From NCBI GenBank assembly GCA_002839355.1, contig PGXW01000030.1:1-45924 (forward strand): a stretch of DNA of 45,924 nucleotides, given 5' to 3'. The DNA comes from Spirochaetae bacterium HGW-Spirochaetae-2. Its GTDB lineage: Bacteria; Spirochaetota; Spirochaetia; Sphaerochaetales; Sphaerochaetaceae. Of the stretch, positions 121-5,145 are shown piece after piece. Both the position numbers and the translations under genes were made by a program. The notes below the pieces were generated by a model. It ran no database searches, had not been told where the DNA came from, and saw nothing but the letters and a program-made list of their open reading frames with translations. Every line of letters begins with the position of its first letter. Within the stretch, counting starts at the first letter, position 1.

Positions 121-217
121 CCGAGTTGATTTCCCAACGGAGCGAGCGTAAAGGAAACGGCTTGCCGATTCCCCTGGCGAACGAGTGCAGGAAACGCAAG
201 GAGAACAAAACTTTCAT
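98..217 (-). CDS. Possible 39-codon ORF coupled to the metA stop codon
   Basis: The ATG (215-217) overlaps the metA TGA (214-216) as ATGA, the pattern of translational coupling. The predicted 39-residue peptide is rich in Phe, Leu and Arg and ends in ...SVYGKLLP. There is no separate Shine-Dalgarno, and the last part lies in the hairpin proposed as metA terminator. I recognise no family. It may be a real small protein, part of a dispersed repeat, or chance. Confidence 0.2.
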   Translation of the reverse strand: MKVLFSLRFLHSFARGIGKPFPLRSLRWEINSVYGKLLP

Positions 218-1185
218 TGCAATCTGATATGCTTTGGTTCCGCCGGAGACCCCTGGTGTGTATATGTTTCCGGCAACAAATCCAGGTCGAAGGGCGTTGT
301 CTGATACACATAATAATTCAACCAATTGGTATACAGCAACTGGGCATGCGAATACCAGCTCACCACCGGTCCTTGCTCCGGATCGTCGTTCCGATAGTAG
401 TTCTTCGGTATCTCGATATGTAGCCCCTTGTCGATATCGCGGCGGTATTCCTGGTCCAATGTGCCCGACTCATACTCGGGATGCCCGAACACAAACACCT
501 GCCTTCCGTCTTCGCTCGCGACAATATAGAGTCCCGCTTCGTCGCTATCGGAAAGAACATGCAATTCCTTGACTTTCTCCAGGTCTTCGGACCTGACCTC
601 CGTGTGCCGCGAGTGGGGAGCCTTGAACGTATCGTCGAATCCCCTGAGCAAGGGGGTATTGGAAACTTTCACCCGATGCTCGAAAATTCCGAACATCTTT
701 TGCTCCATAGGGTATTTGCGGATCCCATAATGGTAGTACAGACCGGCTTGGGCACCCCAGCAGAGGAACAAGGTGGCGAACACATGGTTCGCCCCCCACT
801 CCATGATCTCGCAGAGTTCGTCCCAATATTCGACATCCTCGAATTCCATGGTCTCCACTGGAGCCCCTGTGATTATCAAACCGTCGTAGGACAGCTTCCT
901 CACCTGGTCGAACGTCTTGTAGAATTCCTCGAGGTATTCGGCCGAAGCATGTCGCGACGTATAGGTCGCGGTCCTGAGGAAATCCACCTCGATCTGCAAC
1001 GGCGTGTTGGACAACCGGCGCAACAGACTGGTCTCGGTGCTGGTTTTCAATGGCATGAGGTTCAGAATCAACAACCTCAGGGGACGGATATCCTGGCTTG
1101 CCGCCCGTTTTTCCGTCATGACGAAGATATTTTCCTGTTCGAGGACATTCTTTGCAGGCAAGGCATCGGAAATCTTTACTGGCAT
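214..1185 (-). CDS. metA: Homoserine O-acyltransferase (MetA family, predicted acetyl-CoA specific)
   Basis: Activates L-homoserine by acylating its hydroxyl group, the first committed step of methionine synthesis; cytoplasmic. The 323-residue length is close to the family norm. The active-site residues known from E. coli MetA fall at the same numbers: Cys142 (in FLCWGAQAG), His235 and Glu237 (in FGHPEYES). Residue 111 is Glu (GAPVETMEF); family work shows that Glu here, in place of the Gly of E. coli, selects acetyl-CoA over succinyl-CoA. That fits the O-acetylhomoserine sulfhydrylase gene directly upstream. The start is well fixed: the TAGGAGG Shine-Dalgarno (1191-1197) contains the metY stop codon, so translation of the two genes is probably coupled. 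An automatic label of 'succinyltransferase' would probably be wrong. Confidence 0.95.
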   Translation of the reverse strand: MPVKISDALPAKNVLEQENIFVMTEKRAASQDIRPLRLLILNLMPLKTSTETSLLRRLSNTPLQIEVDFLRTATYTSRHASAEYLEEFYKTFDQVRKLSYDGLIITGAPVETMEFEDVEYWDELCEIMEWGANHVFATLFLCWGAQAGLYYHYGIRKYPMEQKMFGIFEHRVKVSNTPLLRGFDDTFKAPHSRHTEVRSEDLEKVKELHVLSDSDEAGLYIVASEDGRQVFVFGHPEYESGTLDQEYRRDIDKGLHIEIPKNYYRNDDPEQGPVVSWYSHAQLLYTNWLNYYVYQTTPFDLDLLPETYTHQGSPAEPKHIRLQ

Positions 1186-1194
1186 ATCGACCTC

Positions 1195-2481
1195 CTACAA
1201 TTCCAACGCCTGGGCAAGATCGGCGAGCAGGTCCGTGATATGTTCGGTTCCGATCGATAGGCGTATCGTTCCTGGCTCGATTCCCGCGGCAAGCAACTCG
1301 TCTCCAGTCAATTGGCTATGGGTCGTACTCGCAGGATGTATCACAAGGGATTTGACATCGGCCACATTGGCGAGCAATGAGAAGATCTCCAGCTTGTCTA
1401 TAAAGCGCGTCGCACCTTCGGAACCACCTTTCACCACGAATGTGAATATCGAGCCTCCACCCTGCGGCAGATATTTGGTGTACAACGCATGTGTCGGGTC
1501 GGTCGGCAACGAAGGATGGTTCACACGGACCACGTTGGGATGCTTATTCAAGAAATCTACCACCGCCAACGTGTTCTGTACATGACGTTCGACCCTGAGG
1601 GAAAGTGTTTCCAAACCTTGCAGGAACAGGAATGCATTGAATGGACTGAGTGCCGCACCATAGTCCCTGAGCAAAATGACGCGTGCACGGGTGATGAACG
1701 CCAGATTGCCTGTGGCCTCGGTATAGCTGATCCCATGGTAACTCGGATCGGGTTCCACGAACCAAGGGAATTTGCCCGAAGCCTTCCAATCGAACGTTCC
1801 TCCGTCGACTACGACTCCTCCGATGCTCGTTCCATGTCCGCCGATGAACTTCGTCGCGGAATGGACAACGATATCGGCACCATATTCGATCGGCCTGAGC
1901 AGATAGGGGGTGGCGAATGTATTGTCCACCACCAAGGGGATTCCGTGGGCGTGGGCGATTCGGGAAATCTGTTCGATATCGGACAGGTTGGCGTTGGGAT
2001 TCCCGATACTCTCGATAAACACTGCCTTCGTATTCGGTTGTATGGCGGCCTCGAGAGCTTCGAGGTCATCGGAGTCGAAGAAGGTGGCCGTCACGCCGTT
2101 TTCCCCGAAAGTCCTTCCAAACAAGTTGAACGTTCCCCCGTAGATGGTCCGGGCGGAGACGATATGGTCGCCATGGTGGGCGAGGTTTTGCATGGCGATG
2201 GTAATGGCCGCTTGGCCGGATGCGGTCGCCAAGGCTCCAACACCACCTTCCAGGGCGGCGATCCTCTTCTCGAACACGTCGGTGGTCGGGTTCATGATAC
2301 GGGTGTAGATATTTCCGGACTCGGAGAGGTCGAACCGGGCCGACGCCTGCCTGCAATCGTCGAACACGAACGAGGTTGTCGCATATATAGGGACAGCACG
2401 TGCTCCAGTCGCCGGATCGGGTTGTTCTTGTCCAGCATGCAGCTGGAGGGTCTCGAAATGTAATTTCTGTGAATTGCTCAT
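1195..2481 (-). CDS. metY: O-acetylhomoserine sulfhydrylase (PLP enzyme)
   Basis: Makes homocysteine directly from O-acetylhomoserine and sulfide, bypassing cystathionine; cytoplasmic, pyridoxal-phosphate dependent. The 428-residue protein is a typical member of the Cys/Met metabolism PLP family: an N-terminal HAGQEQPDPATGARAVPIY block, a SGQAA segment near residue 88, VVDNTFATPYLLRP near 184-197, and the PLP-binding lysine K211 in VHSATKFIGGHGT. The length (about 425-430, not 380-400) and the LHAGQ start favour sulfhydrylase over cystathionine gamma-synthase. The ATG follows an AAGGAA Shine-Dalgarno that itself overlaps the TAA of a 37-codon ORF upstream. metA follows two bases into its own Shine-Dalgarno, so ORF-metY-metA reads as one unit. 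Confidence 0.95.
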   Translation of the reverse strand: MSNSQKLHFETLQLHAGQEQPDPATGARAVPIYATTSFVFDDCRQASARFDLSESGNIYTRIMNPTTDVFEKRIAALEGGVGALATASGQAAITIAMQNLAHHGDHIVSARTIYGGTFNLFGRTFGENGVTATFFDSDDLEALEAAIQPNTKAVFIESIGNPNANLSDIEQISRIAHAHGIPLVVDNTFATPYLLRPIEYGADIVVHSATKFIGGHGTSIGGVVVDGGTFDWKASGKFPWFVEPDPSYHGISYTEATGNLAFITRARVILLRDYGAALSPFNAFLFLQGLETLSLRVERHVQNTLAVVDFLNKHPNVVRVNHPSLPTDPTHALYTKYLPQGGGSIFTFVVKGGSEGATRFIDKLEIFSLLANVADVKSLVIHPASTTHSQLTGDELLAAGIEPGTIRLSIGTEHITDLLADLAQALEL

Positions 2482-2492
2482 GATTTGGTTCC

Positions 2493-2606
2493 TTATTGGA
2501 TATATGTGGGATAAGCGCGACCAGACTGGCGCATGATGGACTGAAGTTGTCGCATGCTGCTGCGGACGGAGCCATAACGATGGTATGTGTTGTATGCTCT
2601 GCTCAT
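2493..2606 (-). CDS. 37-codon small ORF upstream of metY
   Basis: This reading frame is too short for routine gene calling. It has a full AAGGAGG Shine-Dalgarno (2614-2620) seven bases before an ATG (2604-2606) and ends in a TAA (2493-2495) whose bases run into the AAGGAA ribosome site of metY. The peptide begins MSRAYNTYHRYGSVRSSMRQ and ends ...SGRAYPTYIQ. It is basic, with five Tyr, about seven Arg and three Met. There is no run of Met codons as in a classical attenuator leader, no signal peptide and no membrane segment. It lies just after the rpsU terminator. It is either a small protein or a translated leader controlling metY-metA; the family is unknown to me. Confidence 0.6.
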   Translation of the reverse strand: MSRAYNTYHRYGSVRSSMRQLQSIMRQSGRAYPTYIQ

Positions 2607-2627
2607 CCAGGAACCTCCTTGATCAAA

Positions 2628-2633
2628 AGTATA
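2628..2633 (-). promoter_or_regulatory. Possible -10 box (TATACT) in the rpsU terminator T-tract
   Basis: On the minus strand the eight-T tail of the rpsU terminator runs straight into TATACT, five of six bases of consensus. Transcription from it would start about seven bases on and give a leader of only some 15 bases before the 37-codon ORF. No acceptable -35 sits 16-18 bases upstream (that region is the terminator stem), so read-through from rpsU remains the alternative. Confidence 0.3.
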
Positions 2634-2661
2634 AAAAAAACCGCCGGTTGTACACCGACGG
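2633..2661 (-). terminator. Intrinsic terminator of rpsU
   Basis: Minus strand: CCGTCGGT (2654-2661), a five-base loop, ACCGGCGG (2641-2648) with one G-T pair, then eight T (2633-2640). A textbook rho-independent terminator 27 bases after the rpsU stop codon. Confidence 0.9.
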
Positions 2662-2687
2662 CGATCACGTCACATGTACTGAGGCGA

Positions 2688-2906
2688 TTAATAGCTCTTC
2701 ATGGAGTGCATCTTACGAACTTTCTTCATCTGCTTTCGCAGTAAAGCCTTCTTTTTCCGGTTTTCGATCGTGGAAGGCTTCTCGAAATATTCGCGCTTTT
2801 TCCATTCCCGGATAATGCCCTCTTTCTCGACCATTCTCTTGAATTTCTTGATCGACTTCTCGAGTGGCTCATTATCGTCAACTCTTACGTAAGCTATAGT
2901 AATCAC
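2688..2906 (-). CDS. rpsU: 30S ribosomal protein S21
   Basis: Small basic protein of the 30S subunit that helps base pairing between the Shine-Dalgarno and the 16S 3' end. The 72-residue sequence has the family layout: an N-terminal [20 protein letters not shown] segment, then [15 protein letters not shown], and a lysine/arginine-rich tail ([16 protein letters not shown]). The start is a GTG (2904-2906) immediately preceded by GAAGGGGG; no ATG fits as well. It has its own terminator, and a perfect -35 lies between it and recJ, so it is probably a separate transcript. Confidence 0.95.
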
Positions 2907-2940
2907 CCCCTTCCCTCAGCTTGGGAAAAATTTCTGAATC

Positions 2941-2969
2941 ATCTTCCCGAATTAATCGCTTTTTGTCAA
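2941..2969 (-). promoter_or_regulatory. Probable rpsU promoter
   Basis: Minus strand, just inside the gap after the recJ stop: perfect -35 TTGACA (2964-2969), 17-base spacer, weak -10 GAAGAT (2941-2946). The -35 is convincing, the -10 is not. Confidence 0.4.
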
Positions 2970-2970
2970 G

Positions 2971-5145
2971 CTATCGGAGAATATCCTCGATGGGAGTCTT
3001 GTGTTTCTTCAAGGAAACGACAGTCAATTGTATCGATTCGCTGTTCCTGAAGTAGTTGCGTCCCATGCGGAACACGATATCGACCGAATCTCCCGTGTTG
3101 AATATCGTGCCGACTTCATCGGCGGCATTCCAATAGAGGGCCGGCCATCGGTATTGCCCGAACAGCAATTGCAGCTTGACATGGCCCGGCCCTGTGCCTT
3201 TCGAGCGGTTCAGGAATTGGACTTCCTCCACCGTCGCCCCTTGGATCAGGAATTGCAAGGGAGGATTGCCCTCCCCATACGGCTCGAAGGTCTCCACCAG
3301 TGCGATCAGTTTGGGGGTCATATAGTCGGCTGGCAATTCTGCATCGATCAGAATCGGCTCATCCTCTTCATCGTCCCGCGATTCCAGCTCGGCAATCGTA
3401 CTGTTTATACGTTTGCGCAATGTATCGAGATGTTTACGTTCCATACTGAAACCGCCGGCACACCGGTGTCCACCGAAATCGAGGAACAGGTCCTCGAAAG
3501 CGCTGAGAAAATCCCGGACATTGAAATGCTGGGGACTGCGAATCGAACCGGTCACCCTATCGGCATCGACATGTGCTATCACCATGCTGGGGGAGTTGAA
3601 TTGGCGGAGCAATCGGGAAGCCATGATTCCAGTCAAACCCCGGCTGACCGTTGGGTCCTCCACCATAAGGAATTTGCCGTCGAAATCCCCATGGCTGGAT
3701 TTGGCTTTCGGCAACAACCGTTCCCACGAGTCGTCCCCCTGCTTTTGCCTCTCACGATTCAATCGCATCAGTTCCCCGGCATACTCCTCGCACTGGTGCA
3801 TATCTTCTGCCAGGAACATGTGTGCCGCGACCTGCGGTTTGCCCAACCTTCCCGAGGCATTGATCACAGGAGTCAGCTGCCACCCGATATCCGAGGTCGA
3901 CAACCTCTTGCCTACAAGATTCTGCATGGTCATGAGGGCGAGCAGCTCTTTCCGGACCCCCTCTGTCATAATTTTCATCCCCGAGCGGACCATGATACGG
4001 TTCTCATCGACCATCGGCATCAGATCCCCGATCGTGCCCATCGCCACAAGATCCAGAATCTTTTCGTACTCGACGGAAAGGGAGGGAACCGAACGCAGCA
4101 CATACGCGGTAAACAGGGAAACAAGCAGATCGAGCTCCGAAGCGGTCCGGGTATATCGGATGGATTTGCTGACACGCATCAGGCTGAACAGGCTTTTGCC
4201 CACCATCTGCGGCAAGACCTGCTCGAACTGGTTGCGCAAGTCGGCCATGTGGATATCGATTCCCGAGCCAAAGGCACGCCGCAGCAACTTCTGTTCGACA
4301 TCCACGTCCAAGGCGAGGATCGGGAGCCCGCAATCGAGGAACCGGATCATGCGGCTCTGGTGTACCTCGAGGACGCCCGGCACGATCTCCTCGATCAAAC
4401 GGTCTTCAGGAACGAGGTTCTTCATACGGACCGCTTCGATGATGACCGTCTCGTTGCCAGGTGTGGTGCTTCCCGGACAGGCGTGCAACAGGATCAATTC
4501 CTCACGGTAGAAATTGCTACAAGCGAATCTGAGTGCCCAGATACATTTTGCCACGACACCACAGCCCGCCAGATGCGCGAACGGATAGCCACACCCTTCC
4601 AGCTTCGGATCGATCACCGCCTCGGCGGCCGGAATGATATCTCCAGCCAAATGGTGGTCGGTGACGAGGACATCCATACCCAACCGCCGCGCAAACGCGA
4701 CTTCCTCGATATTGGAGATACCACAGTCGACGGTGATTGCCAGTGTGACATCCTGATCGGCAAATGCCTGTATGCCATCCTTAGTCAATCCATAGGGCTC
4801 GTCTCCCTCAGGCAATCGCCAGAGGGTCTCGATTCCCATCGAACGCAACTCCTGCACGAGCAGCACGGTGCTGGTTATGCCATCGACATCGCGGTCCCCG
4901 AATACACAGACCTTCTCCCCTTCGTCCCGTGCCTGGAGCACACGCTCGACAAAATTTTCCATTTCATCGAACAAGAACGGATTGTGGAGGTACGAGACAT
5001 CGGTTTCCAGGAAATACTGGACAGTTTCAGGCTCTACAGCCCCCCTACGTGCCAACAATGAGGCGGTGATGTAATCCACCCCAAACTGCTCGTTGAGCTT
5101 TCGGATCAGCTCCACGGAAACAGGACTCTTCTTCCATTCCTTCAT
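2971..5145 (-). CDS. recJ: Single-stranded-DNA-specific exonuclease RecJ
   Basis: Degrades single-stranded DNA 5' to 3' in RecF-pathway recombination and in mismatch and base-excision repair; cytoplasmic, Mn/Mg dependent. Phosphoesterase motifs are visible: motif I GDRDVDGIT with D84, D86 and D88, motif II TVDCGIS (D140), motif III VTDHHLAGD (DHH 163-165), and the DHHA1 signature GGHRCAGG at 558-565. A C-terminal OB-like region follows (FEPYGEGNPPLQF...). Motif I reads DRDVDG where most RecJ proteins have DYDADG. At 724 residues it is longer than the usual 560-580; the extra length lies mainly between DHH and DHHA1. The ATG follows TAAGG. recO ends 21 bases upstream, so the two repair genes form an operon. 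Confidence 0.93.
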   Translation of the reverse strand: MKEWKKSPVSVELIRKLNEQFGVDYITASLLARRGAVEPETVQYFLETDVSYLHNPFLFDEMENFVERVLQARDEGEKVCVFGDRDVDGITSTVLLVQELRSMGIETLWRLPEGDEPYGLTKDGIQAFADQDVTLAITVDCGISNIEEVAFARRLGMDVLVTDHHLAGDIIPAAEAVIDPKLEGCGYPFAHLAGCGVVAKCIWALRFACSNFYREELILLHACPGSTTPGNETVIIEAVRMKNLVPEDRLIEEIVPGVLEVHQSRMIRFLDCGLPILALDVDVEQKLLRRAFGSGIDIHMADLRNQFEQVLPQMVGKSLFSLMRVSKSIRYTRTASELDLLVSLFTAYVLRSVPSLSVEYEKILDLVAMGTIGDLMPMVDENRIMVRSGMKIMTEGVRKELLALMTMQNLVGKRLSTSDIGWQLTPVINASGRLGKPQVAAHMFLAEDMHQCEEYAGELMRLNRERQKQGDDSWERLLPKAKSSHGDFDGKFLMVEDPTVSRGLTGIMASRLLRQFNSPSMVIAHVDADRVTGSIRSPQHFNVRDFLSAFEDLFLDFGGHRCAGGFSMERKHLDTLRKRINSTIAELESRDDEEDEPILIDAELPADYMTPKLIALVETFEPYGEGNPPLQFLIQGATVEEVQFLNRSKGTGPGHVKLQLLFGQYRWPALYWNAADEVGTIFNTGDSVDIVFRMGRNYFRNSESIQLTVVSLKKHKTPIEDILR

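Follow-up and report, generated by a model that had tools for sequence, protein, structure and literature searches.

Leader genes acting by re-initiation, including those of Spirochaetales, show a peak at 10–11 nt in the gap between their own stop codon and the start codon of the gene that follows (Korolev et al., 2016; PMC4833913). The cysteine leaders of actinobacteria carry runs of Cys codons near the stop codon, with no conserved hairpin described (PMC1262725), and in plants the MTO1 peptide of CGS1, which is eukaryotic and lies within the coding region itself, is associated with AdoMet-induced arrest and mRNA decay (PMC8137854). Among open-licence papers, none was found that describes a metY leader of the kind considered here.

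This leader lies in a stretch of 45,924 nucleotides from Spirochaetae bacterium HGW-Spirochaetae-2, the whole of which is called the window below. Relatives with the locus include, by name, HGW-Spirochaetae-4, Spirochaetales SM3-B16.1, and Sphaerochaeta sp. UBA6084, and the family is shared with Sphaerochaeta; genera are numbered g1 (the window's own) and so on. A search for SAM-I riboswitches in the window's genus and close relatives came back empty (no match to RF00162 in genomes G000–G007), which puts the control of methionine synthesis there in question, and the metY leader family offers a directly testable answer.

A small gene between rpsU and metY

The initial annotation had described a strong Shine–Dalgarno sequence (SD), AAGGAGG, followed after seven bases by ATG, 37 codons, and a TAA that runs into the SD of metY, and had seen metY chained in the same way to metA. 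Read from the window sequence, the whole arrangement, with both overlaps, was confirmed on the minus strand. The span originally noted (2493–2633) comprises the leader ORF and its 5' side, the ORF proper being 2493–2606. The features are as follows.

214–1185, minus strand: metA, homoserine O-acetyltransferase (NF047918, 487.8 bits against a cut-off of 460.5)
1195–2481, minus strand: metY, O-acetylhomoserine sulfhydrylase, 428 aa, the target gene (TIGR01326, 648.7 bits against a cut-off of 495.1; PF01053)
2493–2606, minus strand: leader ORF, 37 codons plus TAA, peptide MSRAYNTYHRYGSVRSSMRQLQSIMRQSGRAYPTYIQ; ATG at 2606, TAA at 2495–2493
2614–2620, minus strand: leader SD AAGGAGG, then the 7-nt spacer TTCCTGG before the ATG at 2606
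2640–2662, minus strand: intrinsic terminator after rpsU and just before the leader, a 9-bp hairpin plus T run, whose stem covaries in 10 relatives
2674–2679, minus strand: GUACAU after the rpsU stop; it complements the terminator loop GUGUAC (2655–2650) and might form a pseudoknot or serve as an anti-terminator arm (suggestive only)
2688–2906, minus strand: rpsU, ribosomal protein S21 (PF01165)

The leader TAA overlaps the metY SD AAGGAACC (2494–2487), and the gap from the leader stop to the metY start, with its ATG at 2481, is 11 nt; the metY TAG (1197–1195) likewise overlaps the metA SD AGGAGG (1196–1191), and the metA ATG follows at 1185. On both strands of the whole 45.9 kb, only four ATG-started ORFs have AAGGAGG, TAAGGAG, or AGGAGGT 4–10 nt before the start codon: three long genes, one of them metA, and the leader ORF. 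Because so nearly perfect an SD is this rare in the window, the leader ORF is not an arbitrary short frame, and the small gene upstream of metY is real. Its peptide matched no family in Pfam or NCBIfam. Since it contains Met at codons 1, 18, and 25 only and no Cys at all, it is not a codon-run sensor, and a classical amino-acid transcription attenuator was rejected because there is neither a Met/Cys codon run nor a terminator between the leader and metY; the rpsU terminator, located before the leader, is the sole terminator found in 2450–3050. A consensus search found no promoter between this terminator and the leader.

The rpsU terminator itself has some peculiarities. Its loop is complementary to UGUACAU just past the rpsU stop (window 2640–2690, minus strand; loci L177–L185), and several relatives have both this loop pairing and an alternative hairpin fold that would undo the terminator. 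Among the genera examined, six have such a terminator form, perhaps as a single clade, and in all of them rpsU precedes metY or metA. In genus g21 (L178, L180, L181), a terminator of this type also follows rpsU, the next gene is metA instead of metY, and no leader of the window type was seen before metA in the stretch inspected at these loci. A reading of the rpsU terminator as a conditional attenuator was not adopted and is kept as a lead only: the loop pairing reaches only p 0.07–0.18 per genome where testable and the anti-terminator arm, judged by eye, is not kept in g2, g4, and others.

Conserved core and coding signal of the leader

In the window and in related genera alike, metY is preceded at a constant position by an SD-led coding frame with a conserved peptide core.

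2553–2579, minus strand: conserved peptide core RYGSVRSSM, codons 10–18, from alignment and shuffle tests; Met18 at 2555–2553

The core consensus, R-[C/Y]-x-S-[V/I]-x-[D/S]-[R/H/S]-M, is common to short SD-led ORFs before metY, and leaders with the same core, SD, and position occur in g1, g2, g4, g6, g22, and g3. Individual cores are RNGLVRASM in G002 of the window's genus, SFGPVHSSM in G003, RCSSVRDRM in G007, RCRSVKDRM in G023, and, as the weakest, KIDHFHSRM in G005; about two dozen g3 species have RCGSVTDHM, RCGSVKDRM, RCNSIKDRM, and similar cores. Three species of the window's genus share the open frame and the strong SD: the leader of the sister species G001 has 36 codons (83%), one fewer than the window's, that of G002 is of equal length, and the 125 nt from the leader ATG to the metY ATG are free of indels. 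In most relatives the leader is 16 to 37 aa long and the distance from the core Met to the metY ATG is 67–75 nt (74 in the window and G007), with a second group at 49–51 nt and a few members at 87–100 nt. In many g3 species and in g22, the leader ends tens of nucleotides upstream of metY; the core is still kept there, and the metY SD is masked by prediction.

A profile built from 15 leaders gave strong matches solely just before metY, one per genome, in 139 genomes of the family, and it also matched four genomes outside the profile set (G129, G130, G134, G139). In 395 genomes of the class, the strict core pattern had true matches only before metY in the window's family; matches at L049–L053 lie inside other genes and were set aside as chance. 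An HMM made from the g3, g22, and g6 cores alone, leaving out g1 and g2, failed to single out the window peptide across the whole window, and the link of this peptide to the family therefore rests on position, DNA similarity to G007, and the intermediates. Together these point to the window leader as probably a member of an undescribed leader-peptide family in its spirochaete family. The initial annotation had expected the frame to persist in relatives that keep rpsU next to metY, and this was borne out in part: g1, g2, g4, and g6 keep both the adjacency and the leader, and in genus g16 metY directly follows rpsU and its terminator, with no leader ORF between.

The substitution pattern indicates that the reading frame matters in the core and that the remaining peptide is free. 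Pairwise differences among 12 distinct g3 cores number 95, 103, and 267 at codon positions 1, 2, and 3. Between the window and G001 the whole ORF shows one silent and seven replacement codon changes; the silent one is the only change in codons 10–19, and all seven changes outside the core are replacements (7/7, silent 0). For metY the same comparison gives 108 silent versus 7 replacement codons. With a core free of replacements and only replacements in the rest, the ORF looks like a leader peptide and not like a small protein under selection, and the earlier suggestion of a new small protein was not upheld, even the Tyr residues being lost in the sister species (Y5H, Y8Q). Shuffle tests of peptide similarity gave p=0.001 for G007 against g3/g22, p=0.036 for the window against G007 and against G003, and p=0.007–0.12 for the window against g3 members; these values are per single pair and the core was first spotted by eye, so that they are supportive, not decisive. 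Unannotated ORFs of 16–40 codons with a strong SD can thus hold a coding signal seen only by cross-genus comparison.

Other leader peptides were seen before metY. A second family, found in Treponema-like genomes (f24) and some Clostridia (L265–L293, L226, L227, L240, L244, L248, L258, L260; L073, L078, L092, L104, L121), has the consensus MxxYFEKLVRENFRNGxM(C/R) and a longer, strongly conserved form YFEKLVRENFRNGxM[CR]xCC, with Met nearly always at codon 18. It occurs in up to four copies per genome and also precedes other genes, among them, by eye, one metQ-type lipoprotein look-alike and two methyltransferase/UroD-like genes. Of 32 leaders tested, 17 have an SD region able to pair over at least 7 bases with the region of the core Met codon, a count taken with no chance control and including a few leaders of a related NNRRMCCC type; matched changes are seen in GGAGGCACA/UGUGCCUCU and GGAGGCGCA/UGCGCCUCU. 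The R10 and M18 positions are common to this family and the window peptide, a likeness of position and not evidence of common origin. Sphaerochaeta-like genomes have a further SD-led ORF, MMQMQSSTDSCDPMMCHNALA and variants with the core MMC[RHQ]xA, about 120–350 nt upstream of metY (L026, L028–L045, L048); in g3/g22 the SD of this upstream ORF (MMCxxA) can pair with its own AUGUGCC codons over 6–9 pairs in 12/12 cases, again with no chance control. Genus g8 (L046) has a different SD-led ORF before metY, MTRTLSILCITMCSSMRMPLQG, and the metY leaders of Bacillota and Fusobacteria, MNKSRKIWGNNRRMCCCSM and similar (L075, L081, L091), are of the Cys-run type.

Predicted masking of metY and proposed control

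The pairing, masking, and accessibility results below are all thermodynamic predictions. In the window, two arms are predicted to form a helix between the SDs of leader and metY.

2609–2615, minus strand: 5' arm GGUUCCU of the predicted SD–SD helix, overlapping the leader SD (pair probability about 1.0; duplex test)
2487–2493, minus strand: 3' arm AGGAACC of the predicted helix, inside the metY SD

The pairing is predicted with a probability near 1 and 6–9 pairs in three g1 species, g2, and g4; with 731 other SD-led gene starts as the reference, the share of random draws that match this pairing to the metY site ranges from 0 to 2.3% over six genomes. A ribosome at the leader start is predicted to relieve the masking in g1 and g2, and in the window a footprint there lifts the predicted accessibility of the metY SD from 0.12 to 0.61, while a footprint at Met18 leaves it unchanged. 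In the Sphaerochaeta-like g3/g22 leaders, the metY SD is predicted to pair instead with sequence at the core Met codon or immediately 3' of it, through arms that vary by species (GCUUCUGAA/UUCAGGAGC, CUUCUGGU/ACCAGGAG, CUUCCUUCU/AGAAGGAAG, AUGGGUUUC/GGAACUCAU). When a 31-nt ribosome footprint is blocked in these genera, the predicted accessibility of the metY SD rises for P-site positions from codon −2 relative to the core Met onward, and at the core Met itself the mean predicted gain is 0.28 versus 0.02 for shuffled spacers; L035, L040, and L170 are exceptions with no such release. A ribosome stalled at the arrest site is predicted to unmask the metY SD in g4 also, as in g3/g22, and in G007 the predicted pairing is only partial and masking is absent.

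We consider it likely that the ORF is a translated leader cistron controlling the translation of metY, and that of metA through the overlapping stop and SD. The initial annotation had offered a translated regulatory leader as one option, which gains support from the same core, SD, and place before metY in g1, g2, g4, g6, g22, and g3, together with the predicted masking. In this leader cistron, the SD of the leader itself would sequester the metY ribosome site in a helix. Ribosomes that load on the leader would melt this helix and uncover the metY SD, and those that terminate at the leader's stop codon, which overlaps the metY SD and sits 11 nt before the metY ATG, could move on to metY. We infer that the leader is translated and that the core around Met18 probably serves for pausing or sensing, with methionine supply as the most likely signal, although this last point is a guess. 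In g3/g22, a ribosome pausing at the core Met codon is predicted to switch metY on, and a pause at Met that exposes metY in g3 would fit induction on methionine shortage. In the window's genus, metY would be exposed by leader loading and re-initiation; because no opening of the metY SD is predicted for a ribosome at Met18 or queued directly behind it, a pause at Met18 might either raise or lower metY there.

The leader might merely boost metY through termination and re-initiation, sensing nothing, with an irrelevant peptide. The 11-nt gap at the 10–11 nt peak of leader genes, Spirochaetales included (PMC4833913), the leader stop overlapping the metY SD, and the freedom of the peptide outside the core would all suit such unregulated coupling, but the core is kept across genera with silent third-position changes, and many g3 and g22 leaders end too far from metY (tens of nucleotides) for simple re-initiation and yet keep the core and the masked SD, so that we regard it as unlikely. 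That slowing at a core Cys codon reports cysteine supply is very unlikely: RC does occur in the g3, g22, and g6 cores, Clostridia and Treponema leaders are Cys-rich, and cysteine leaders are known in actinobacteria (PMC1262725), but the window peptide is without Cys, and a ribosome at the Cys position (−7) is predicted to leave the metY SD closed, whereas one at the Met codon opens it.

Even less probable is an RNA-only switch in which the SD–SD helix responds to a ligand, a protein, or temperature and the ORF is incidental. The helix by itself is strongly supported, but the core carries a coding signal, the mask is of two types depending on the genus, with the peptide core and its distance to metY kept in both, and an Rfam match is absent. 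A functional small basic protein of sulfur metabolism would fit the open frame, with its strong SD, that three species of the genus share, but it is highly improbable: between the sister species all seven changes outside the core are replacements, the length is 16 to 37 aa among most relatives, and a family match is absent. As for a chance ORF, the frame is short and the window holds many ORFs of such size, but the profile matches confined to the region before metY, the third-position bias, the core without replacements, and the SD rarity reduce its probability to a negligible level.

Beyond the leader cistron favored here, it is conceivable, if rather doubtful, that the core R-x7-M, with Met at codon 16–19 (18 in the window), senses methionine or SAM as a nascent chain in bacteria, and that the window-type, Treponema/Clostridia (R10, N12, G16, M18), and Sphaerochaeta-like MMC leaders all belong, as separate branches, to a single widespread class of peptide-plus-RNA switches that act on sulfur amino acid genes. 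In any case, the metY leaders are small targets for ribosome-arrest studies.

Comparison with known systems

The SAM riboswitches (SAM-I and SAM-II) resemble this locus in controlling met genes from the 5' region; Rfam scans, run on the window at gathering thresholds and on the region at loose ones, gave no credible hit and no SAM family match. Like the actinobacterial cysteine leader peptides of cys operons and cbs (PMC1262725), the leader precedes a sulfur amino acid gene, but its peptide has no Cys and no Cys codon cluster. The plant CGS1 MTO1 peptide (PMC8137854) would be similar as a cis-acting peptide on a step of methionine synthesis if the core acts as a peptide, and no homology is claimed.

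With re-initiation leader genes (PMC4833913), the metY leader shares a stop codon 11 nt before the gene start and overlapping its SD, but it has in addition a conserved peptide core and a masked SD (predicted). To the erm-type translational attenuators (ermBL/ermCL) it is similar in having a short upstream ORF with its own SD, a downstream SD masked by prediction, and a leader ribosome that is predicted to unmask it, most clearly in g3/g22. However, the target here is a biosynthetic gene and no antibiotic is involved, the peptide core is unrelated, stalling is only inferred, and the masking element in the window's genus is the SD of the leader itself. Overall, by analogy, the metY leader would act like an erm-type translational attenuator combined with close-spaced re-initiation (PMC4833913).
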